Origin: an uncultured Chloroflexota bacterium | GTDB lineage: Bacteria > Chloroflexota > UBA11872 | Direction: 5' to 3' | DNA: 64,000 nucleotides | Assembly (NCBI GenBank): GCA_958296175.1 | Contig: OY282448.1 | Span: 2,046,472-2,110,471 of the forward strand | Part shown: piece after piece, positions 33,357-53,150 of the stretch | Position numbering within the stretch: the first letter of the stretch is position 1 | Layout: the number at the start of each line of letters is the position of its first letter | Program-made: the position numbers and the translations under genes | The notes under the pieces: model-generated | The model's database searches: none | What the model was told of the DNA's origin: nothing | Seen by the model: the letters and a program-made list of their open reading frames with translations, nothing else

Positions 33357-36300
33357 GTGGCTGAACGTCGAGACGCCGCCCAGCCGGCGGCCGCGCGCGC
33401 CGCCGCGCCCGCCGCCGATGCCGCGGCCAACGGGATCGACGCGTCCGTCGCAGGGTGGCAGAGCCAGCTGTTGCAACTCAACCGCCGCAACAACCTGCTG
33501 TACTTCAAAAGAAACGTGGTTCCCACAGACCCGCAGTCTCGCCGCCGGTCCACCATCCGCTGCGTCCCAATCACCGGGTTCGACCCTGACGGGATCGACG
33601 ACCACCTGCGGCGCGCGCGCAATGGCAGAACCTTCGAATACGCACAACGCCGCCGACGGCGGAAAGGGGACGGCCAACAATCGCCGGCCAACGGGCCCGC
33701 ACAGCCCGGCGTGGAGGTCGAGCCCGGCGAACTGCAAACAGGCGTCGATCCCCTGGCCTTGCAACCAGTGCTGCTGCGCTTCATGCGCAAAGAACGCGAA
33801 TGGATGGAAGAGCAGGGCATCAACGTCCTGTTCCTGGCCGTCGGCTTTCTGGAATGGATCGACCAGGAACGCGAGCGCGCCGTGTCGCCGCTGCTGCTGC
33901 TGCCTTGCGACCTGTGGCGGTCATCGCCGCGCGACCCCTTCGTGCTCAAACGCGCAGACGACGACGCCGAGGCCAACGCCACCCTGCGACACAAGTTGGG
34001 CGAGTTCGGCCTGGAGCTGCCCGAGTTCGACCACGCGACTTACGCGCAATATCTGGACGACGTTCGCGATTGCATTCGCGACCGCGAGGGCTGGAGCGTT
34101 ACCGACGACGTCGTGCTGTCCACCTTCCAGTACACCAAGCTGGCCATGTGGGAAGACTTGCAGCGCATGCGCGACCAGGGCATCGCTCATCCGCTGGTGC
34201 GCCGGCTGGCCGGCGAGCAGCCGGACCTCGCCGCAGCCGCGGCGTCGAACGGCGCGTTTCCGACCGAGGCCGAACTTTCCGGCGGCCGTCTGGACGACCT
34301 GCTCGACCTGCGCCAGGAGTTCGCCGTCCTGCCCGCCGACCACAGCCAGCTGCGCGCCGTAGCCGCCGCCCGGCAAGGCGGGAACCTCGTCATCCACGGC
34401 CCGCCCGGCACTGGCAAGAGCCAGACCATCGTCAACGTCATTGCCAACCTGCTGGCCCACGGCAAGCGCGTGCTCTTCGTCAGTGAAAAGAGCGTGGCGC
34501 TGGACGTCGTCAAAGACCGCCTGGAACAGGAAAACCTGGGCGTTTTCTGCCTGGACATGCACAGCGAACGCGCCAGCAAAACCTCGGTCTACGACCAACT
34601 GCAGCAGTCGCTGGACGACGAACGCAAGGTCGGCCGCCTGGAGTACAGCTACGAAGGTCTGGAAGCCCGCAGAACCGCGCTCAACGACGTCGTGCGCGCG
34701 CTGCACGAACCGCGCCCCCCGCTGGGCCGCAGCGTGTACCAGATGCACGGCGAGTACGCACGGCTGCGGGACCTGCCCGATGTGGAGTTCGAGACGCCGC
34801 CCGCCGCGCAGCTGGACGCGGCGCTCCTGCAGGAGATCGGCACCCTGACCGAACGCATCGCGCGCCGCCCCGACGAGTTTCGGGACCTGGACACCTCGAA
34901 ATGGCGCGCGCTGAAGGCGCAGACCGCTTCGCTCGGCCTGGCGGACCGCATCCGCCGCGACGTGGACGCCGCCCGGCAGGCCGTCCAGAGCGCGGCTGAC
35001 ACCCTTGCGCACCAGGCCAGCATGATGGGGGTTCGAGCGCCCGAGGACATGCGGGACGCGCCGTTGCTGCTCGACCTCGCCCGTCATCTGAACGGCAGAC
35101 CGACGGTGCTGAAACTCTGGCTCGACAAGGACGCGCTGTCCCGCTTGCGCCGCGTCGCCGGCGAGCAACAGTCACAACAACGAGAAGCCCGCGCGTTGGC
35201 CACGCAGGTCGGCCGCGCGTTCGGCGGTTCCATTCCCGAGATCGATTACCAGCAGCTATCCCTCGATGTTCGCCCCACGCCGACCGAGGTCGACGCGCTG
35301 AATCGAGCGTTCGGGAAAAAATGGCCGCACAGGCTCCTTCCCGACCCCGCCGCACTCCTGGACGTCACCGCGCAAGCCGAAGCCGAGGCAACTGCCGCCG
35401 TAACCGCGCTCGACCACCTCGCGGCCACGCTGGAGCGCGACCCAATGTCTGCGTCATGGCAGGAATCGAAGCAGACGCTGGAGATTGCCCAACGCCTGGT
35501 CGACGTAGGCGTCGTACCGGAGGCATGGACCGACCGTGCACGCCTCTCGGAATTCAAACGGCTCGCAAACGCTGCTGGCGTTGCTCACAAGGCGTTGGCG
35601 AAGGCCGAGCGTCGGCTTTTTGCCTACCATGATCAGGACATTGTGGATGAGGTCGATCGGGCGATGCTTACTCGCTTTCGCACCGATCACCAGAATTGGG
35701 TGCGGCGCTCGCTGGTTGGCCGCAGCGCCTATCAGCGCGATGTGAAGCTGCTGCGCAGCTACACCCCGACGCGGCAAGGGTTGGCCTTCGCCGGTTGGCA
35801 CCAGGTGGTCGAACACGCGATCGAGATTCAATCGCGGCGCCGGCAGTGGGAATCGGCGTACGCGGCCGTCGAACCCATCCTCGACCGGCATGCACGTGCG
35901 CGTGAGACGGATTGGACGCAAGTCGAAGACCACATCTCGCGTACGGAACGTTTGCTCGGCGACTGGCCGTGGGATCCATCGAGGTTGCGCGTGGTGCTGA
36001 CTCGTCGTGACGAGTTGCAAGCGTTGGAGACCGCATGGCAGGACGCGCGGGCAAAACTCCAGACGCTGGAAGATGTAGTGCGCCGACGTTACGAGGAACG
36101 GCTGGGCCGCGATTGCGACGGGCCAGCAGTCATCGCGGCCGACCTTCGGCAGGCCCTGGCGCCGCTCGAACGGCTGACGACGGCCGCGGCCCCCGTCATC
36201 GAGCGTCTGGTCGATATCCCTGGCGGTTGGGCGGACTTGCAGAAGCTGATCGACAAGACGGCGCTTCTCAGAAACATCGAGCGCGCGGAACGTGAGACCA

Positions 36301-39300
36301 GAAACGTGTTGCAGCATGACTTTGGCGCGTACTTCCAGGACCGGGATACGGACTGGGAAGCCGTGTCGAATGCGCTCGAATGGTGCCGGGAGCTCCTCGA
36401 CCTGGTGCACGGACGCCCGAGCGAACGCCTGCGCAGTCTGGTGTGCGCAGGCGACCCCGAGTTCGATGCGGACGCGTCGGCGAAAGCGATCGAGTCCTTG
36501 CAAGCTACGTATCCGCGCGGCGTGCAGCGCCTGGACGAGAGATTCGACCTCGCCATGCTCCCGTGGTCGTCTTGGGAACTTGCGCCGTTCGCGGACCTGT
36601 CCGATTGGCTCGAATCGATTTATCGGGAGGCCGACGACGCGGCGAACTGGGTCGAGTTCACACAGGCGTGCGGCGGGCTGGACCGTAAGCTCGGTGAAAA
36701 CGCCGTTCGACACATCCGGGCCGCAACCGAGGACGCCGGCATGGTTCCAGGCATCGTGCGGCGGCGGCTGTTCGCGGCGTGGCTCGACGCCGTGTTCCGA
36801 CAGGACCCGCGCCTGCGCGACTTTACCGCGCCCGACCACGAGGGGTTGCGCAGCGAATTTCGGACCCTGGACCAGCAGCTTACCCAGGTGATGCGCGAGC
36901 AGGTGCGCACAAAGCTGTTTGCCAAGTATCCAAGCAGCGGAACCAGTCTGACACGGGGCGGACAGCTTGGCGTTTTGCGCGGCGAGCTGTCCAAGCGACG
37001 CCGGCAGATGTCCGTGCGGCGCCTGCTGGCGAGGGCCCCGCTGATAATTCAAGCCTTGAAGCCATGCTTCCTGATGAGTCCGTTGGCCGTGAGCCAATAT
37101 CTGGAACGGAGCGGCGCGGCCAGCGCCAACGTCGGCTTCGACGCTGTGATCTTCGACGAGGCTTCGCAGGTGCTGCCCGAAGACGCGGTCCCCGCCATTT
37201 CCCGCGCCGGGCAGACGATTATCGTGGGTGACCGCAAGCAATTGCCGCCGACGACGGTCTTCCAGCACCGCTACGAGCACGAAGACGACGACGATGACGG
37301 CGGCGACGACATCGACTGGTTCGAAGGGCGCGAGAGCATTCTCGACGTCATGGTCGGGATGGTCGACAGCGGCGCCGTCGAGCACTACCTGGACGTGCAC
37401 TACCGCAGCCGGCACGACAGCCTGATCCGTTTCTCGAACCACCACTTCTACGAAGACCGCCTGCTGACCTTTCCCAGTCCGCAGAACACACCCGAGCTTG
37501 GCGTGCGCAGCGTCTATCTGCCCGAGGGGCGCTACGACGCCGGCGGCTCGCGCACCAACCGGGTCGAGGCCGAGAAGACCGTCGCACTGGTCTTCGAGTT
37601 GATGCGCACACGCCCGGCCAGCGAAAGCATCGGCGTCGTGGCGCTGTCGCGGGCGCAGGCCGACTTGATCGAGACTTTGATCGATGAAGCGCGCCTGGAC
37701 GCCCCCGAGTTCGAAGACCGCTTTGCCCGCGGACAGGAGGAACGCTTCTTCGTCAAGAACCTGGAAAACGTGCAGGGCGACGAACGGGACCACATCCTGC
37801 TGTCCATCGGCTACGGACCCACAGACTCCGGCCGGGTGTACAACCGCTTCGGCCCGATCAACAACGATGGCGGCGAGCGGCGTTTGAACGTGGCCGTCAG
37901 CCGCGCGCGCCGCTCCATGACGGTGGTGCATTCGCTCACGCCCGAGGACATCACGGCGGAGAGCCGAGGAGCGCGGCTACTCAAGCGCTATCTGGAGTTT
38001 GCGCGCAATCCCGACACCGCCATCGAGCAAAACCTGACCGTCGACGCGCAGGCCGAGACGGAAAGCCCTTTCGAGGAAGCCGTGCGCCGAGCCTTGATCG
38101 AACGCGGCCACCGGGTCGACGTACAGGTTGGCGTGGCCGGCTACCGCATCGATTTGGGCATCCATGCCGAGGACGGGAGCGGCTACGCCTTGGGGATCGA
38201 GTGCGACGGCGCGACCTATCACAGCGCCCCGGCCGCGCGCGACCGCGACTGGCTGCGCCAGTCGGTTCTGGAAGGTCTGGGCTGGAAGATTCACCGCGTC
38301 TGGTCGCGCGCCTGGATTCAGAACCCGGAACGCGAGATCAAGGCGATCGAGCAGTCCCTGACGGACGATCCTGCTGACCCAGCTCCTGATGACGAACCGG
38401 TGGTCGTTCGTCCTAGACATGCGGACTTCGACAACGACGCAGACTTCGACAACGACAGTGAGGCGGACTCCGACAATGACCGTGAGGTGGATGGCCGATT
38501 CGACTCCTACCAAATTGCAGATCTCTCGCACATCCCTGTTGGGTCGGATCTCCGCAGCGAGAACCCGGTAACGTTGCGTGATCTGGTCATCGCCGTCGTA
38601 AATGTCGAGGGTCCAGTACACGTGGATTTGGTAGTCGATCGCATTCGGCTGCATTGTGGTATCGGGAGGGTGCGGGGGAGCACCCGCGACCTAGTTCACC
38701 AAGCCATGGATGCGGCGGTTTACAGAAAAGACCTGGAATGGGTGCCGGAGGAGAACCTCGGAAGACTGGTTCGGAAGTCGTTCCTTGCAACTTCCGATCA
38801 GCTAGAACATCCTCGTCTACGGGTACCGGATGAAAATAACGCATTGCGCCGAAAAATCGAACACATCGCACAGATTGAACTGAAGTTGGTCGTGCTGGCT
38901 TGCGCACAGTTGCTGTATGGAGCAGAGCGTGACGATCTGATCAAAGAAACAGCACGCCAACTCGGTTTCCAACGAACAAGCGCTGGTATTTCAAGTCGGA
39001 TTGATCAAGCTATCGATCAACTACTGGAAGACAATGTACTCACAGATAGCGATCACGTCTTGACTAGTAATCGAGCTTATTCGCTCCAAAGTAATGATCA
39101 AATCGTCCCTCATGTTTCTCGGAGGAATACTAATGAAAGAGCGGGGCATGCTGAAGAGGGCACATCAAATTCTATAGTTGTTGAAAACAGTAAGTTTCGT
39201 ATTGGAGAGCGCAATGAAACGCACTGGAAATTCTCCTATCAGGTCAATCTGAGGAATAATAGCAAGCACGGTTACACGTGTGATTTGAGTGTCAAGTTTC

Positions 39301-39770
39301 TCAACAGCGATGGGTTTGTAGTAGGTGATCATTTCGCATCCCGTATTATTGTGCCAGCAAATGGGATAAAGAATTATACTGATTATGTTCGGATCGGTAC
39401 TGAAGAAGCTAAAAATGTATCTTCTATGCATGTAGAAGTAGCATACGTTCGTATGCGAGTTGAAGGACCTGGCTTGTCCAAGGCAACAAATCCGCGCATT
39501 GAAGTCAATGACAGTAAGTTTCGTATTGTGGAGCGCAATGAAACGTACTGGAAATTCTCCTATCAGGTCAATCTGAGGAATAATAGCGAGCACGGTCACA
39601 CATGTGATTTGAGTGTCAAGTTTCTCGACAGCGATGGGTTTGTGGTGGATGACCATTTCGCATCCCGTATTGTAGCGAGAGAAAATGATATGAAGCGCTA
39701 TAGAAATTACACTCTAGTCAGTGTAGGAGAAGCAATCAAGATTGTATCTATGAATGTAGAATGTTATTGA
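33357..39770 (+). CDS. DUF4011-SF1 helicase-PD-(D/E)XK nuclease-DUF3320 protein with two Ig-like FxLYD-type repeats
   Basis: The 2137-residue protein starts at GTG 33357, eight bases after GGAG. Domains in order: DUF4011 (about 30-330); an SF1/UPF1-like helicase split by a long helical insert, with Walker A GPPGTGKS (348-355), DEAS (1267-1270), GDRKQLPPTT (about 1290) and motif VI NVAVSRARR; a Vsr-like MTES_1575 nuclease whose catalytic residues are in YRIDLGI and IECDGATYH (about 1600-1620), followed by GWKIHRVWS; a DUF3320-like segment (about 1730-1870, VEGPVHVDLVV..); and two 108-residue Ig-like repeats from about 1940 to the end. The helicase-nuclease architecture is known from defence-type genes; the Ig-like tail is not expected in one. 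All helicase and nuclease motifs look intact. From about 38.5 kb the DNA becomes AT-rich. The gene stands alone, next to the convergent rbfA end of a core operon. Confidence 0.93.
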   Translation: MAERRDAAQPAAARAAAPAADAAANGIDASVAGWQSQLLQLNRRNNLLYFKRNVVPTDPQSRRRSTIRCVPITGFDPDGIDDHLRRARNGRTFEYAQRRRRRKGDGQQSPANGPAQPGVEVEPGELQTGVDPLALQPVLLRFMRKEREWMEEQGINVLFLAVGFLEWIDQERERAVSPLLLLPCDLWRSSPRDPFVLKRADDDAEANATLRHKLGEFGLELPEFDHATYAQYLDDVRDCIRDREGWSVTDDVVLSTFQYTKLAMWEDLQRMRDQGIAHPLVRRLAGEQPDLAAAAASNGAFPTEAELSGGRLDDLLDLRQEFAVLPADHSQLRAVAAARQGGNLVIHGPPGTGKSQTIVNVIANLLAHGKRVLFVSEKSVALDVVKDRLEQENLGVFCLDMHSERASKTSVYDQLQQSLDDERKVGRLEYSYEGLEARRTALNDVVRALHEPRPPLGRSVYQMHGEYARLRDLPDVEFETPPAAQLDAALLQEIGTLTERIARRPDEFRDLDTSKWRALKAQTASLGLADRIRRDVDAARQAVQSAADTLAHQASMMGVRAPEDMRDAPLLLDLARHLNGRPTVLKLWLDKDALSRLRRVAGEQQSQQREARALATQVGRAFGGSIPEIDYQQLSLDVRPTPTEVDALNRAFGKKWPHRLLPDPAALLDVTAQAEAEATAAVTALDHLAATLERDPMSASWQESKQTLEIAQRLVDVGVVPEAWTDRARLSEFKRLANAAGVAHKALAKAERRLFAYHDQDIVDEVDRAMLTRFRTDHQNWVRRSLVGRSAYQRDVKLLRSYTPTRQGLAFAGWHQVVEHAIEIQSRRRQWESAYAAVEPILDRHARARETDWTQVEDHISRTERLLGDWPWDPSRLRVVLTRRDELQALETAWQDARAKLQTLEDVVRRRYEERLGRDCDGPAVIAADLRQALAPLERLTTAAAPVIERLVDIPGGWADLQKLIDKTALLRNIERAERETRNVLQHDFGAYFQDRDTDWEAVSNALEWCRELLDLVHGRPSERLRSLVCAGDPEFDADASAKAIESLQATYPRGVQRLDERFDLAMLPWSSWELAPFADLSDWLESIYREADDAANWVEFTQACGGLDRKLGENAVRHIRAATEDAGMVPGIVRRRLFAAWLDAVFRQDPRLRDFTAPDHEGLRSEFRTLDQQLTQVMREQVRTKLFAKYPSSGTSLTRGGQLGVLRGELSKRRRQMSVRRLLARAPLIIQALKPCFLMSPLAVSQYLERSGAASANVGFDAVIFDEASQVLPEDAVPAISRAGQTIIVGDRKQLPPTTVFQHRYEHEDDDDDGGDDIDWFEGRESILDVMVGMVDSGAVEHYLDVHYRSRHDSLIRFSNHHFYEDRLLTFPSPQNTPELGVRSVYLPEGRYDAGGSRTNRVEAEKTVALVFELMRTRPASESIGVVALSRAQADLIETLIDEARLDAPEFEDRFARGQEERFFVKNLENVQGDERDHILLSIGYGPTDSGRVYNRFGPINNDGGERRLNVAVSRARRSMTVVHSLTPEDITAESRGARLLKRYLEFARNPDTAIEQNLTVDAQAETESPFEEAVRRALIERGHRVDVQVGVAGYRIDLGIHAEDGSGYALGIECDGATYHSAPAARDRDWLRQSVLEGLGWKIHRVWSRAWIQNPEREIKAIEQSLTDDPADPAPDDEPVVVRPRHADFDNDADFDNDSEADSDNDREVDGRFDSYQIADLSHIPVGSDLRSENPVTLRDLVIAVVNVEGPVHVDLVVDRIRLHCGIGRVRGSTRDLVHQAMDAAVYRKDLEWVPEENLGRLVRKSFLATSDQLEHPRLRVPDENNALRRKIEHIAQIELKLVVLACAQLLYGAERDDLIKETARQLGFQRTSAGISSRIDQAIDQLLEDNVLTDSDHVLTSNRAYSLQSNDQIVPHVSRRNTNERAGHAEEGTSNSIVVENSKFRIGERNETHWKFSYQVNLRNNSKHGYTCDLSVKFLNSDGFVVGDHFASRIIVPANGIKNYTDYVRIGTEEAKNVSSMHVEVAYVRMRVEGPGLSKATNPRIEVNDSKFRIVERNETYWKFSYQVNLRNNSEHGHTCDLSVKFLDSDGFVVDDHFASRIVARENDMKRYRNYTLVSVGEAIKIVSMNVECY
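39187..39671 (+). repeat. 324-bp-offset direct repeat in the helicase tail
   Basis: 39187-39347 and 39511-39671 are about 93% identical (11 mismatches in 161 bp by my count). Both encode KFRI.ERNET.WKFSYQVNLR. Each lies at the start of a 108-codon unit in an AT-rich stretch, so this is a recent duplication of the FxLYD-like domain. Confidence 0.9.
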
Positions 39771-39976
39771 TACGATATAATGCCCACACGTTGCCTATTG
39801 TGACTCAACATTGTGCTCCACGACAGCATATTTCACACCCACAAGCCTATGCTAGAGATTGATCTTTGCGACTTGATATCGACCACGACCGTGGACGCGT
39901 GCGGGTTCGGAGTTCTGATTGTGCATACGCCCTTCCCAGTTCGGAGTCTATTACACTGACAAAGGCATAGTGTTCC

Positions 39977-40003
39977 GAATCAGCGAAGCTGATTCACAGC
40001 TTC
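39977..40003. terminator. two mutually exclusive overlapping hairpins between helicase and rbfA
   Basis: GAATCAGC (39977-39984) pairs with GCTGATTC (39988-39995), while GAAGCTG (39985-39991) pairs with CAGCTTC (39997-40003). Both cannot form at once. They lie in the 39771-40095 gap between convergent genes, which is otherwise AT-rich and in which I see no gene. A perfect TATAAT at 39776-39781 has no -35 partner. Confidence 0.5.
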
Positions 40004-40095
40004 GTCGCGAGTATAAGTTCAGCAGCGGTGCTTAGATGCTGCGTGTTTCCAACTAACGCTAGTCCCTCCGCGGCACTTGCCTGCCGTGCGTTACT

Positions 40096-40431
40096 TCATT
40101 TCCCAGGCGGCGGCAATCCAGCTTCTGGGGCAGGCATCATCATTTCGGGGTCGAGTTGGAAGTGGATGGCGGGAACGCGGTACATGTGGATGAGGGCGGA
40201 GAGTTCGCGGCGGACGTAAGGGGCGGCGCGTTGCAGGGCGTGCACGGACTGGTGCGCGTTGGCCGTATCGCCCAGCGGGGTGACGAAGACCACCGCGCGC
40301 TGTAAATCCGGCGAGACCGAGGTGCGGCGCACCGTCACCAGGCCGATCTCGGGGTCGGACAGACGGCCGATGAGTTCGCTGATGTCGCGCGTGATTTGAG
40401 CTTCGATGCGCTGCGCGCGGCGCGAGCTGAT
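40096..40431 (-). CDS. rbfA: ribosome-binding factor A
   Basis: The 111-residue protein begins with SSRRAQRIEAQITRDISELIGR and shows SDPEIGLVTVRRTSVSPDL, then FVTPLG and RRELSALIHMYRVPAIHFQLD. This is the normal length and pattern of RbfA, a KH-fold factor that matures the 5' end of 16S rRNA on the small subunit. The only codon that fits the conserved N-terminus is ATC (40431-40429), seven bases after a strong GGGAGG. No ATG, GTG or TTG exists in frame between the infB stop and this point. A later GTG would remove 30 residues of the conserved start. It is the last gene of the nusA operon. Confidence 0.92.
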   Translation of the reverse strand: MSSRRAQRIEAQITRDISELIGRLSDPEIGLVTVRRTSVSPDLQRAVVFVTPLGDTANAHQSVHALQRAAPYVRRELSALIHMYRVPAIHFQLDPEMMMPAPEAGLPPPGK

Positions 40432-40447
40432 GGCGGCGCCTCCCGGC

Positions 40448-42340
40448 CTAGGGCAGGCGTTCTTCGGTGTGGTGGGCCTCGACGACGTCGGCGAGTTGGA
40501 TGCGCGTGCCGGTTTCGATGGCCAGCCCGCAGTCGAAGCCCTCGCGCACCGAGTCCACCTCGCTGGTGAAGCGGCGCACGGTGAGGATGCGGCCGGCGCC
40601 AATTTCCTCGCCGCCGCGCAGGATGCGCACGGCCGCGCCTTTGTACACCTGGCCAGACAGCACCATGCCGCCCACGATCTGGCGCGCGCGCTCGGCGCGG
40701 AACTCGCCGCGGATTTCGAGGCGCCCGTCCACCACTTCCACTTCTTCGGGCTTGATCACGCCCTTGAGCGCTGCGTCCACGTCGTCGATCAGCTCGTAGA
40801 TCGTGCGGTAGGTGCGCACGTCCACGTTCTGCCGGTCGGACTCGGTGGCCGCGGTGGCGTCCACGCGCACGTTGAAGGCCACCACCAGACCTTTGGCGGC
40901 GGCGGCAAGGTTGACGTCGGACTCCGTGACCGACCCCACGCCTTCGTAGATCACCATGGCGCGGGCGCGTTCGTCGCCCAACTGGTCGATGGAGGTGACC
41001 ACGGCGTCCACGGCGCCGGCCGTGTCGGCTTTCACCACCAGGTTGATCTGTTGCAGGCGGCCGGCGGTCATCTGGGCGGCCAGGGATTCGAGGCTGAGGC
41101 GCATGGCCTGGTCGCCGCCGCCGCGCGCGGCCGTGCGGTCCTGGCGCCGCCGCGCCTTGCGCGTGCGAGGCACGGCGCGCAGGGAATCGCCCACGACGGG
41201 CATGGAATCCAGCCCCATGACCTCTACCGGCGTGGAGGGGCCGGCCGAGGTGAGCCGTGCGCCGCTGTCGTCCATCAGCGCGCGCACGCGGCCGTTGATC
41301 GCGCCGGTGGTGATGGTGTCCCCAACGGCCAGCGCGCCGCGCTGCACCAGCACGGTGGCCAGGGGTCCCTGGCTGCGGTCGAGCCGCGTCTCGATGACCG
41401 TGCCTTCCGCCGGCCCGTCCGCCGCCGCGTGCAGTTCTTCCAGCTCGGCGGTCAGGTTGATGTATTCCAGCAGGTCGTCGACGCCCTCGCCGTTGAGCGC
41501 GGACAGGGGCACGGCCACCACGTCGCCGCCGAAGTCTTCCACCACCACCTCGTGCTCGGTCAGCTGTTGCAGCACGCGGCTGGGGTTGGCCGCCGGCAGA
41601 TCGATCTTGTTGACGGCCACGATGAGAGGCACGCCGGCGGCCTTGGCGTGGCCGATGGCTTCCACCGTCTGCGGCATCACGCCGTCGTCGGCGGCCACCA
41701 CGACCACGGCGATGTCCGTCACCCCCGCGCCGCGCGCGCGCATGGCGGTGAAGGCTTCGTGGCCTGGCGTGTCGATGAACGTGATGGAGGCGCCGTCCAG
41801 GGCAACCTGATAGGCGCCGATGTGCTGCGTGATGCCGCCGTATTCGCTGTCGACGACGTTGGTCTGGCGGATGGTGTCCAGCAGGGTGGTCTTGCCGTGG
41901 TCGACGTGGCCCATGACGGTCACCACCGGGGCGCGCGGCTCGCCGGCGGGCGGCGCGGCAGCGTCGGCCTGGGCGGCCGTGGGTTCGGAAGCTTGCGGAG
42001 GCGCCGTCGGCGCGGCCGCTTCCTCGGGCGCGTCGACGATGGCAACGCCCAGGTTCTGCATGACCGCGCGCGCCGTGTCGCGGTCGATGGCGGCGTTGAT
42101 GGTGGTCAGCACGCCGCGGTTGAGCAGCTCCATGATGATGTCGGTGGGCGGAACCGCGGCGCGTTCGGCAATCTCGCCGATGGAGGCCGAGGCTGGCATG
42201 GGAACTTCGCGCAGCTTGACGACCGGCGGCGGCGGGGGGGCCTCGGTGCGCTCCGCGGCTGCGGGCGCGGCGCGCTGCGGCCGGCGGCGGGCATGCGGCC
42301 GCGGCGGCGGCCGGCGGCGCGTGCGGCGGCGACGCGCCAC
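40448..42340 (-). CDS. infB: translation initiation factor IF-2
   Basis: This 630-residue GTPase brings initiator tRNA to the ribosome. The basic N-terminus (about 45 residues) is very short. The IF-2 N-subdomain follows ([26 protein letters not shown]), then the G1 loop GHVDHGKT (144-151), DTPGHE, NKID and the C-terminal domains IV-VI, ending in [17 protein letters not shown]. It starts at GTG 42340, just after the ylxR stop, in the middle of the operon nusA-ylxR-infB-rbfA. Its stop is 16 bp before the ATC of rbfA. Confidence 0.97.
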
Positions 42341-48403: not shown

Positions 48404-50269
48404 ATGGGCGTCGGCGTGCTGACGCTCGCCGCCCTGGCCGTCATAGGCGCAGTCACCGTAGTGCGCTTCGCCACCCAGCAGCCCGCCACGCAACCCGCGG
48501 CAGCCAACGCAGCCCCCGCCCCCACGTCAACGCCGCAACCGCCCGCCGCGCCAACCCCATGGGCAACGCCGACGCCAACGGCGAGACCAACGCCAACGCC
48601 GACCCCGCAGCCTCTCGCGCACGTGGTCAGCGCCGGTAGCGGCCACACCTGCGAGGTGCGAACCGACGGTTCCCTCTCCTGCTGGGGCGAGAATGACTAC
48701 GGCCAGGCCGACCCGCCGCCGGGCGCGTTCCAGTCCGTCAGTGCCGGCAATAATCACACCTGCGGAGTGAGAACGAACGGGACGCTCGCTTGCTGGGGAT
48801 TGAGTTCCGCAGATCAGACCAATTCACCGCCGGGCACGTTCCAGTCGGTCAGCGCCGGTTTGACCTACACCTGCGGCGTGCAGACAAACGGGGCGCTCGC
48901 CTGCTGGGGATCGAACGTCTTTGGCCTGGCCCCGCCGTCGGGCACGTTCCAGTCGGTCAGCGCCGGCGATTTGCACACCTGCGGAGTGCGAACGAACGGG
49001 GAGCTTGCCTGCTGGGGGTCGAATAACTCTGGTGAGGCCGACCCGCCACCGGGTACGTTCCAGTCCGTCAGCGCCGGCTCCCTGCACACCTGCGGAGTGC
49101 GGACGAACGGAGCGCTCGAATGCTGGGGAAGTGACTTCTTAGGGCAGGCCGATCCACCGGCAGGTGTGTTCCGGTCGGTCAGCGCCGGCAACATTCACGC
49201 CTGCGGAGTGCGAACGAACGGGGCGCTCGTCTGTTGGGGATCGAATGACGACGGGCAGGCCGATCCGCCACCGGGCGCTTTCCAATCAGTCAGCGTCGGT
49301 TACAGACACACCTGTGGCGTGCGGGACAACGGCTCGCTGGTCTGCTGGGGACGTTACGGCTACTTCAGGCACGCCGCTGATCCGCAGGATGGCTTTCGCG
49401 TCGTCAGCGCCGGCGGTGAGCACGCCTGCGGTGTGCGGACGGACGGCACGCTTGCCTGCTGGGGATGGAACCGCTACGGGGAAGAGGCCCCGCCGTCGGG
49501 CGCGTTCCAGTCGGTAGTCGCCGGCGGTGACATCACCTGCGGGGTGCGGATAGATGGCACGCTTGCTTGCTGGGGATCGAATGACGAAGGGCAAGCCGAC
49601 CCGCCGTCGGGTGCGTTCCAGTCGGCCAGCGTCGGTAGTGGCTTTGTCTGCGGAATGCGGATAGATGGCACGCTTGCCTGCTGGGGCCGGAATGGCAAAG
49701 GGCAAGCCGACCCGCCGCCGGGCGCGTTCCAGTCGTTCAGTGTCGGCGATTTCCACAGCTGCGGTGTGCGGACGGACGGCACGCTCGCCTGCTGGGGATC
49801 GAACGACGACGGCGAGGCCGCCCCGCCGTCGGGTGCGTTCCAGTCGGTCAGTGTCGGCAGTTCTCACAGCTGCGGGGTGCGAACGAACGGTGCGCCTGCC
49901 TGCTGGGGATTGAATTCCTTGGGGCAGGCCGACCCGCCGTCGGGTGCGTTCCAGTCGGTCAGCGCCGGCGGTGCTTATGCCTGCGGGGTGCGAACGAACG
50001 GTGCGATTGCCTGCTGGGGATCGGCTTTCGGAGTGTGGCCCAACCCGCCGTCGGGTGCGTTCCAGTCGGTCAGCGTCGGCCACCATGAAACCTGCGGGGT
50101 GCGGGCCGATGGCGAGCTTGTGTGCTGGGGTGTGGGTTTTGACGGACCGACCGTAATTCCAGACGGTCCGTATCAGTCCATGAGCTTCGGCGGCTCCGCC
50201 ATCTGCGCACTGCGGGCCGGCGGTTCTGTCGACTGTTGGGGAGGTCCAAAGATCAAGCCTCGCGGGTGA
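48404..50269 (+). CDS. exported RCC1-like protein with 15 Cys-paired repeats
   Basis: A hydrophobic N-terminal helix (VLTLAALAVIGAVTVV) and a Thr/Pro-rich linker (TPTPTARPTPTPTPQP) place the rest outside the membrane. Fifteen repeats of about 37 residues follow, with the core FQSVSAG..HTCGVRTNG.LACWG and PP.G at the end. This is the RCC1_2-type blade, so the protein is probably two seven-bladed propellers or one large ring. Each repeat has two Cys (C..VR..G..C), which could form disulfides. The given start is ATG 48404, with no Shine-Dalgarno. A CTG at 48380, seven bases after AAGGA, would add TKLQTFL, a better membrane-anchor start. I take no catalytic role. Confidence 0.85.
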   Translation: MGVGVLTLAALAVIGAVTVVRFATQQPATQPAAANAAPAPTSTPQPPAAPTPWATPTPTARPTPTPTPQPLAHVVSAGSGHTCEVRTDGSLSCWGENDYGQADPPPGAFQSVSAGNNHTCGVRTNGTLACWGLSSADQTNSPPGTFQSVSAGLTYTCGVQTNGALACWGSNVFGLAPPSGTFQSVSAGDLHTCGVRTNGELACWGSNNSGEADPPPGTFQSVSAGSLHTCGVRTNGALECWGSDFLGQADPPAGVFRSVSAGNIHACGVRTNGALVCWGSNDDGQADPPPGAFQSVSVGYRHTCGVRDNGSLVCWGRYGYFRHAADPQDGFRVVSAGGEHACGVRTDGTLACWGWNRYGEEAPPSGAFQSVVAGGDITCGVRIDGTLACWGSNDEGQADPPSGAFQSASVGSGFVCGMRIDGTLACWGRNGKGQADPPPGAFQSFSVGDFHSCGVRTDGTLACWGSNDDGEAAPPSGAFQSVSVGSSHSCGVRTNGAPACWGLNSLGQADPPSGAFQSVSAGGAYACGVRTNGAIACWGSAFGVWPNPPSGAFQSVSVGHHETCGVRADGELVCWGVGFDGPTVIPDGPYQSMSFGGSAICALRAGGSVDCWGGPKIKPRG

Positions 50270-50340
50270 ACTCGCGCCTGGGACTCCTGGCCGCTAACTG
50301 CGAATCACGTGTCACCAATCACGAACCACGAGCCCCCGGC

Positions 50341-51192
50341 CTACGTCCACGCCACAGCGTCCAGCCCGATGTCCACGGCGCGGGCGGCGTGGGTGAGGGC
50401 GCCGATGGAGATGTCGTCCACGCCCGTCTCGGCGTAGGCGCGCACGTTGGCCAGGGTGACTCCGCCGCTGACTTCCAGCCGCGCCTGGCCGTTGGTGCGG
50501 CGCACGGCTTCGCGCACGTCGGCGGGCGTCATGTTGTCCAGCAAGACGGCCTCGGCGTCGTGGGCCAGCGCCTCGTCCAGCTGCGCCAGGGTGTCCACTT
50601 CGACCTGGAGGCGCATGCCGGCGGGGCGCGCCTCGTAGGCGCGGCGCAGCGCTTGGGCGACGCCGCCGGCCGCGGCCGCGTGGTTGTCTTTGACGAGGAT
50701 GGCGTCGTAGAGGCCGAAGCGGTGGTTGACGCCGCCGCCGGCGGCCACGGCGTACTTCTCCAGTGCGCGCAGGCCGGGCGTGGTCTTGCGCGTGTCCAGA
50801 ATGCGCGCGCCGGTGCCGGCCACCCGCTGGACGAACGCGCGCGTGAGCGTGGCAATGCCGCTGAGCCGCTGCACGAAGTTGAGCGCCGTGCGCTCGCCGG
50901 TGAGCACCAGCCGCGCGTTTGCGTGCACGGCGCCCAGCGCGCCGCCGCTCTCGATTCGCGCGCCTTCCGCCGACGCGTCGTGCACGGCTTCGGGGGCGCC
51001 AAGCTGCCGGTAGACCTCGCGCACGAGCGGCATGCCCGCCAGCACCAGCGGCTCGCGGGCGGCCAGGACGCCGCGCAGCCGCGCGCCGGGCGCAACGACG
51101 GCGCGGCTGGTTGCGTCTCCCGCGCCCACGTCTTCGTCCAGCGCCAGGGCAACGGCGCGCTCGATGGCCGCGCGCGGCGGCGGCGGCGTCAC
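50341..51192 (-). CDS. nadC: nicotinate-nucleotide pyrophosphorylase (quinolinate phosphoribosyltransferase)
   Basis: The 283-residue protein makes nicotinate mononucleotide from quinolinate and PRPP, in NAD synthesis. The N-terminal IERAVALALDEDVGAGDATS and the active-site ARILDTRKTTPGLRALEKYAV (Lys and Arg binding quinolinate/PRPP) are clear. KDNH, DNMTP and VSGGVTLANVRAYAETGVDDISIGALT follow. The start is GTG 51192, whose last bases overlap the stop of the small unknown gene upstream as GTGA. An earlier frame start lacks family features. No nadA or nadB is visible. Confidence 0.94.
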   Translation of the reverse strand: MTPPPPRAAIERAVALALDEDVGAGDATSRAVVAPGARLRGVLAAREPLVLAGMPLVREVYRQLGAPEAVHDASAEGARIESGGALGAVHANARLVLTGERTALNFVQRLSGIATLTRAFVQRVAGTGARILDTRKTTPGLRALEKYAVAAGGGVNHRFGLYDAILVKDNHAAAAGGVAQALRRAYEARPAGMRLQVEVDTLAQLDEALAHDAEAVLLDNMTPADVREAVRRTNGQARLEVSGGVTLANVRAYAETGVDDISIGALTHAARAVDIGLDAVAWT

Positions 51193-51491
51193 GAAGTCGA
51201 TGCGGGCGCGCCCCGAAAGCGGATGCGCAGGGCGGCGTAGTCCACGTCCAGCGGCCAAGCCTGGTTGTAGCGGTAGAGCTGGCAGCGCACCACGCCCAGA
51301 TCGTCGATGTGGATGCAGGCCTGGAAGCCTTGCGGGTAGGTAAAGCTCATGAACTGTCCCTGCGCGCCGTCGGTTTGCGCGTTGACGTGGTAGTCGCCCT
51401 CTACTGGCGGGTCGACGTACCAGTCTCCCTTGGGCAGCGTCAGCGCGCCTGGCTGGAGGAACTCTTCCGGGTCGTCGAGCGGCGCGTGCAT
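51189..51491 (-). CDS. small conserved-looking protein of unknown function, coupled to nadC
   Basis: The 100-residue product from ATG 51491 has no motif I recognise. It is acidic at the start (DDPEEFLQPG), contains KGDWYVDPPVEGDYHVN and an aromatic-rich beta-like stretch (FMSFTYPQGFQACIHIDDL), and ends in an Arg-rich tail. Stop and nadC start share four bases (GTGA), which strongly suggests coupled translation. A beta-sandwich or OB-like domain is possible. The frame is open to 51665, but that part lies over a dispersed repeat. Confidence 0.5.
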   Translation of the reverse strand: MHAPLDDPEEFLQPGALTLPKGDWYVDPPVEGDYHVNAQTDGAQGQFMSFTYPQGFQACIHIDDLGVVRCQLYRYNQAWPLDVDYAALRIRFRGAPASTS

Positions 51492-51601
51492 GGGGCAGGG
51501 ACGGCGTGAATCGCGCCAGAATCCTACCTGCTCTTGCTTCCGCCCCGTCTTTTGCTTTCCTCGCTCTCTCCGTTTCTTTTCCCTCGCTCTTGCTTTTCTT
51601 T

Positions 51602-51825
51602 TCCCTCTCCCTGGAGGGAGAGGGCAGGGTGAGGGGGCGCGGGTGGGAGTCGGCCGGGCGGCCATGGTCCCGCGTTCACTGTCTGACGCGCCGGGCGGGG
51701 GTGGGGCGTGGGGGCGGGTCTTCTCTTTGGGCGCTGCGGTCGGTCCCTCTCGCTTACTGCCGCGTCGGGCGCTGCGGTCGACCCCTCACCCTAACCCTCT
51801 CCCCGCAGCGCGGGGAGAGGGAAAA
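51602..51825. repeat. dispersed palindromic repeat, copies 3 and 4 in opposite orientation
   Basis: Copy 3 (51602-51636) runs plus: CCCTCTCCC..GGGAGAGGGCAGGGTGAGGG. Copy 4 (51784-51825) runs minus: CCTCACCCTAACCCTCTCC..GGAGAGGG. They lie 150 bp apart as inverted repeats. The surrounding 51492-52192 gap is pyrimidine- or GC-rich with no gene. Confidence 0.8.
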
Positions 51826-51877
51826 AGAGGGTGCGGGGTCAGGGGGAAGAGGGCGCGGGGTGAGGGGGAGGTGTCGA

Positions 51878-52034
51878 GGCGGGTTTGGCTTTGGTCTGGC
51901 ACTCTCCAGCAGTCGCACGCCCATCATGATCAGCGTTGGTGCTGGCGGGTTTGAGTGTGACCTGGCACGCTCCGCCGCCAGTCCAGCGCGCCGCACAGGT
52001 GTTGGGGTGGGCGGGTTTGGCTTTGGTCTGGCAC
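51878..52034 (+). repeat. three imperfect direct repeats of 66-bp period before the second MoxR gene
   Basis: The core GGCGGGTTTGGCTTTGGTCT..GGCAC starts at 51878, 51944 and 52010, exactly 66 bp apart. The middle copy is diverged. The array is 160 bp before the MoxR start and may be a promoter-side array. Confidence 0.7.
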
Positions 52035-52192
52035 AGTACGCTGGCGGGGCGCGGGCTTGTGGGCCGAGACGTTGGCGCGTCCGTCCAGGCGGACGGCCTC
52101 GGCCGGCCGCCGTGCGCGCACGTCGACCCGGGGAATCACCCCGGCGCCGGGGAAGCTCCCCGGCGAACGCTGGCAACGGAGGGCTGGAACGC

Positions 52193-53150
<958 letters not shown>

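Follow-up and report, generated by a model that had tools for sequence, protein, structure and literature searches.

What is the origin of the AT-rich block that covers the 3' end of a large helicase gene, and the gap behind it, in the chromosome of an uncultured Chloroflexota bacterium? The block lies in a stretch of 64,000 nucleotides (assembly GCA_958296175.1, contig OY282448.1, positions 2,046,472 to 2,110,471), which we refer to as the window and whose numbering we use, except that positions in the millions are those of the contig. A preliminary description of the locus treated the block, from 38.5 to 40.06 kb, as a single import. We find that the block is real but is a composite, made of a DUF3320-containing module of the helicase, an extension private to this genome and the scar of an inversion. 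The single import is not supported by this analysis, as the DUF3320 module is homologous in three relatives and the gap holds decayed native DNA at an inversion breakpoint.

Penalised segmentation places the change points of raw GC at 38,718 and 40,062, identically at three of three penalties, with GC of 0.646 up to 38,717, 0.450 over 38,718–40,061 and 0.699 beyond. At 300-bp resolution GC is 0.64–0.68 to 38.4 kb, descends through 0.57 and 0.47 to 0.41–0.44 at 39.0–39.8 kb, and is restored to 0.66 by 40.1–40.4 kb, which bears out the stepwise fall and the return at about 40.06 kb that had been described. Across 400 kb taken from other parts of the genome, 1-kb GC averages 0.709 (sd 0.044), and of 1,540 overlapping 1-kb segments of this background five fall below 0.50 and one below 0.46; the segment 39,000–39,999 stands at 0.431. 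Within the helicase frame, GC at third codon positions (GC3) forms three plateaus, of 0.82 (residues 1–1668), 0.63 (1669–1809) and 0.39 (1810–2137), which at the middle penalty are separated at 38,361 and 38,784. A boundary inside the frame, previously put at about 38.5 kb, therefore exists, although it begins slightly earlier and is double. The difference in GC3 between the core and residues 1669–1904 is marked (Fisher p = 4.6e-19), and codon counts in the tail that follows these residues agree with the deviant AGT, AAT and AGG codons reported earlier: AAT encodes 21 of 23 Asn residues in the tail vs 5 of 37 in the core, AGT 6/22 vs 5/85 Ser residues, and AGA plus AGG 6/19 vs 10/187 Arg residues.

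The open reading frame (33,357–39,770, + strand, with a putative start) encodes 2137 residues that a domain scan orders as DUF4011, AAA_11/AAA_12, MTES_1575 nuclease, DUF3320 and private tail. DUF4011 occupies residues 37–214, AAA_12 1340–1524, the nuclease 1572–1668 and DUF3320 1735–1772; AAA_11 is also found. The DUF3320 assignment (PF11784) passes the gathering score of 25 bits with the whole protein (35.6 bits) and with the module alone (41.2 bits). On domains and GC3, the GC-rich motor and nuclease part extends over 33,357–38,360 (+; GC3 0.82). Behind it come an acidic linker and a first winged-helix-like unit (38,361–38,783, +; GC3 0.63), delimited by GC3 and fold prediction, with three 18-nt direct repeats in the linker (38,421–38,480, +), and then a second such unit (38,784–39,068, +; GC3 0.40), placed by homology as well, which ends the region common to the relatives. 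The three relatives used for comparison, in all of which the DUF3320 module is homologous, are G003 and G010, which belong to the same genus as the genome of the window, and L132 from the Acidimicrobiales.

Comparison of G003 with G010 provides the clearest view of the junction behind the nuclease. In bins of 25 codons their DNA identity is 0.87–0.97 over residues 1501–1650, falls to 0.60 at 1651–1675 and to 0.41 at 1676–1700, remains at 0.40–0.51 to residue 1825 and reaches 0.57–0.69 over 1826–1900. The window's protein shows the drop here too, its identity to G003 going from 83% to 33%, and the first GC3 step of the window copy (residue 1669) coincides with the break in G003–G010 identity. 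From these alignments, a point of repeated exchange within the gene family appears to lie just after the nuclease, and the composition of the window's own copy together with this behaviour of the family suggests that an exchange took place here as well. The proposal that the 3' end was exchanged or separately acquired accordingly stands in two respects, the family exchange point (0.87–0.97 to 0.41) and the last 233 residues, which the relatives lack; it is not supported as one import covering 38.5–40.06 kb, as the DUF3320 module belongs to the family. G003 and G010 also diverge in mid-protein, where DNA identity is 0.56–0.59 at residues 451–1050, and the gene is thus variable in more than one place; the segment 34,857–36,506 (residues ~501–1050) is highly variable between relatives that are near-identical elsewhere. 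Derivation of the module from the Acidimicrobiales lineage was considered and rejected, since identity is no higher there. Separately, 38,037–38,216 (residues 1561–1620) is 88% identical to the Acidimicrobiales homologue vs 78% to G003, possibly a small mosaic patch.

Fold prediction of the part behind the nuclease (mean pLDDT 77.5) gives a low-confidence start followed by two units, each of three helices and one or two strands. A Foldseek search with this part returned nothing at E 0.001 or better; among its best matches, all weaker than that value, are AlkX/YcaQ, JetABC and cullin WHB domains, which we take to be winged-helix proteins. The module is thus predicted to consist of a linker and two winged-helix-like units, and the C-terminal domains may bind DNA.

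The tail (residues 1905–2137; 39,069–39,770, +; GC3 0.39) comprises 233 residues that are not present in G003, G010 or L132, and is found only in this genome. It contains two beta-sandwich repeats, at 39,186–39,449 (+; by repeat alignment and fold prediction) and 39,510–39,767 (+; by repeat alignment), identical at 57 of 86 residues. The ratio of non-synonymous to synonymous change (dN/dS) between them is 0.54 overall, with the first 55 codons giving 0.29 and the last 31 giving 0.77. Differences are likewise uneven, with 14 in the first 55 codons (39,186–39,350 vs 39,510–39,674) and 39 in the last 31, as after partial conversion. One repeat is predicted as an all-strand fold (pLDDT 88.5), to which the nearest structures are parts of GH2 enzymes, Af_0446 and ApaG. 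The closest relative is a C-terminal domain of another protein of the same genome (48% identity), which from its N-terminus appears lipoprotein-like. When 41 genomes of the class were searched with a profile, seven others gave weak matches, all of the same genus. The tail and the lipoprotein-like protein both resemble the FxLYD domain (NF038353) weakly, with 17.3 and 17.1 bits respectively, and differ from it in that neither reaches the curated cut-off of 23; a literature search on this domain found nothing. As a plasmid- or phage-borne piece the tail is not supported: tblastn gave no match, and a pattern scan of genome contigs gave no relative. Both module and tail might act as sensors. A more distant relative (L159:11336-12478) has a different, longer C-terminal extension bearing cysteine-pair motifs.

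The gap between the helicase and rbfA has another history. It is AT-rich from 39,771 to 40,061 (no strand assigned), where the GC profile and the segmentation change abruptly, and it contains, at 39,820–39,909 (+), a decayed 5'-end fragment of a native gene that we call formamidase-like; this name, like DUF393-like and uroporphyrinogen-decarboxylase-like below, comes from reading the sequences. With the gap as query, an inverted match came up at 2,589,048–2,589,107, which alignment extends to 90 nt at 70% identity, within the intact inverted copy at 2,588,245–2,589,264 beside truB. The match scores 36 vs a mean of 11.9 and a maximum of 17 in 200 shuffles. The fragment is closer to the intact gene of its own genome (identity 0.70) than to those of relatives (0.57–0.63), and therefore arose in this lineage. 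It differs from the intact gene at all three codon positions (9, 7 and 11), and changes polarised with the 8 of 12 relatives that are usable number 12 from GC to AT and one from AT to GC, GC having fallen from 0.71 to 0.52. This decay towards AT, together with the closeness to the genome's own gene, indicates that this part of the gap is decayed native DNA and was not imported; the recognised fragment accounts for 39,820–39,909 and not for 39,771–39,819 or 39,910–40,061. A consensus scan found no promoter or terminator in the gap, and no structured RNA or tRNA gene was found in the window, nor in 39,000–40,300 at E values up to 1.

Gene order suggests how the fragment may have come to lie here. 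rbfA and truB are neighbours in 14 of 14 related loci, whereas in this genome truB lies at 2,589,431 (+) and rbfA at 2,086,570 (−; 40,096–40,602 in the window, with a putative start), diverging and about 503 kb apart. Among the relatives, 10 of 12 loci link the formamidase-like gene with the DUF393-like and uroporphyrinogen-decarboxylase-like genes, and the contigs of the other two end first; here the latter two genes lie to the left of the helicase and the formamidase-like gene adjoins truB. The rearrangement of both linkages has the geometry of a single inversion of about 503 kb, and both reciprocal junctions lie within one assembled contig in that geometry. The sharp return of GC at 40,062 would be the inversion breakpoint.

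Because of these observations we propose, with moderate confidence in the scheme as a whole, that a mobile helicase with an exchangeable module and an added tail lies next to a separate inversion scar. The events may have occurred in the following order. A mobile PDC-S37-like anti-phage helicase-nuclease gene would have been gained between the DUF393-like and formamidase-like genes. Its motor and nuclease would be conserved, while the acidic linker and the two winged-helix-like units would form an exchangeable module, present in this copy in an AT-rich version; the AT-rich extension with two duplicated beta-sandwich domains would have been added in this lineage only. A separate inversion of about 503 kb would have had its breaks next to the formamidase-like gene and in the rbfA–truB interval, leaving an inverted 5' fragment behind the helicase that decayed towards AT. 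In action, invading DNA would most likely be attacked by the motor and nuclease, and contacts of the winged helices and the sandwich pair with DNA or with a partner would select the target. A further suggestion, possible but on balance doubtful, is that the helicase family switches its response by swapping everything behind the nuclease at the fixed acidic linker, and that this lineage has gained, in a beta-sandwich pair related to domains of the lipoprotein-like protein, a new tail for sensing or for binding a partner.

Several observations weigh against this proposal. We identified no donor of the window's own module, and the protein identity of the module between the window and G003 (44–57%) is not below that between G003 and G010 (25–73%), so that the window's copy might merely have diverged. 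GC3 has already fallen to 0.39 by residue 1810, which lies within the module and ahead of the private tail; the boundaries of composition and homology therefore agree only approximately. In relatives a dehydrogenase lies between the DUF393-like and formamidase-like genes; here it sits at 2,284,938–2,285,717, about 200 kb away, and the history of rearrangement thus had more than one step. Rapid divergence in place of exchange is possible, but for G003 and G010 it would need an abrupt onset after near-identity.

An alternative explanation is that the 3' end was not exchanged but drifted in place, under relaxed selection and AT-biased mutation acting across module, tail and gap. The native fragment in the gap did change in this way (GC 0.71 to 0.52, with 12 changes to AT and one to GC), and the last 31 codons of the repeats are under relaxed constraint (dN/dS 0.77). 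We nevertheless consider such drift unlikely as the account of the whole block, as 233 codons remain open, dN/dS is 0.54 over the repeats and 0.29 in their first 55 codons, GC3 shifts in steps, and relatives offer no counterpart from which the tail could have drifted. If instead the whole gene had arrived as AT-rich as the Acidimicrobiales homologue, which is AT-rich throughout in a GC-rich chromosome, and its 5' part had since adapted to the host, the adaptation should have affected the entire gene; the shift is instead stepwise and falls at a domain junction, and the copies in G003 and G010 are uniform at 0.54–0.66 in nearly all blocks of 100 codons, which makes this improbable.

The dip might also stem from the amino-acid composition of a module inherited vertically, together with a common intergenic region, as a mild dip occurs at the same place in G003. 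We regard this as very improbable, since GC3 itself goes from 0.82 to 0.39, G010 has no dip, and the 300 bp beside rbfA have GC of 0.64–0.74 in 13 of 14 relatives (G002 being evenly about 0.5). Least credible of all is an assembly error that joined unrelated stretches at about 40.06 kb. The helicase-rbfA junction occurs in none of the related genomes, as a misjoin would predict, but the two reciprocal junctions fit an inversion within one contig, and a misjoin would not place between helicase and rbfA a fragment 30% diverged from its intact copy.

The distribution of the gene agrees with horizontal mobility, as in our preferred reading of a gained helicase. Of 13 genomes in the genus three have a match, that of the window being one, and in G003 and G010 the gene lies on contigs other than the rbfA contig, i.e. 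in other places. None of the ten relatives with a contig spanning the site carries it there: nine have an interval filled, among the genes listed and named from their translations, by a dehydrogenase and a cupin-like gene and in some also by an ABC-transporter-like set, and in the tenth, G002, the interval is 80 bases. The idea that the site is a defence hotspot was rejected on the same list of genes. The homologue in L132 (61% identity in the best segment) has GC of 0.39–0.50 over most of its length in a chromosome of about 0.70–0.78, and at L132:6200-12142 it forms a sharp AT-rich island. In keeping with the preliminary description, the local dip does not recur in all relatives: it is mild in G003 (0.52–0.53 vs about 0.59) and absent from G010 and L132.

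Defence genes are commonly low in GC, in this genome too, where low-GC blocks are often defence-like. Over 1.264 Mb of the same genome (60 stretches and the window) 600-bp GC drops under 0.52 in 18 blocks, one of them the present one. A Pfam scan of 18 ORFs representing 16 of the remaining 17, which covered low-GC ORFs only and gives no rate for GC-normal ones, shows that 8 of the 17 overlap a gene for restriction-modification or for an AAA_15/AAA_21 ATPase (Eco57I, NgoMIV, a GIY-YIG protein next to a C5 methylase, AAA_15, a type I specificity subunit, GmrSD, AAA_21 and an N6_N4 methylase). The remainder have Fic, DUF4268, or weak or no matches. An Eco57I-type methylase frame at L110:20-2473 (~50,020–52,473 of this genome) has an internal GC step of its own, from 0.60–0.72 to 0.43–0.48 in about its last third.

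As this case illustrates, coding DNA that was exchanged or added can share one AT-rich block with native DNA decayed at a breakpoint, and base composition alone should not be taken as the mark of a single import. Should the junction behind the nuclease prove to be a swap point, sequence would suffice to recognise the variable part in this poorly studied defence family, and natural alleles could be compared to test it.

The block is unusual in detail but is built from known kinds of event. Passages in PMC8963470 and PMC4671568 describe duplication associated with inversion, in which a large inversion is accompanied by an inverted duplicate of breakpoint DNA; the present case resembles those in both features, and differs from what these passages describe in that the duplicate is reduced to about 90 recognisable, decayed bases. 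The helicase is probably an anti-phage defence gene, judged by its profile matches. The PADLOC profile PDC-S37 covers motor, nuclease and DUF3320 part (1275.1 bits in three stretches, the best joining residues 955–1903 to 638–1545 of 1550 profile positions); we judge this match by coverage, as PADLOC gives no cut-off for the score. The NCBIfam anti-phage protein ProA (NF058533) matches at 1191.8 bits, under the curated 1500, and the 233 tandem beta-sandwich residues lie outside both models. Hhe (NF042953 and PADLOC Hhe), a DUF4011 helicase, is similar in DUF4011, motor and nuclease, with a score of 783.9 bits that is below the curated 2000. Literature searches on PDC-S37, and on combinations with Hhe, ProA and DUF4011, found nothing; one paper mentioning DUF4011 treats such a gene, in the passages concerned, as the flank of a defence hotspot. 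Restriction-modification systems exchange their recognition domains, so that a constant catalytic part meets a variable part at a fixed junction. The helicase would be analogous in that its conserved catalytic part joins a variable part at a fixed junction, with the difference that the variable part of restriction-modification systems is a recognition domain, whereas a role of the DUF3320 module in specificity is putative.

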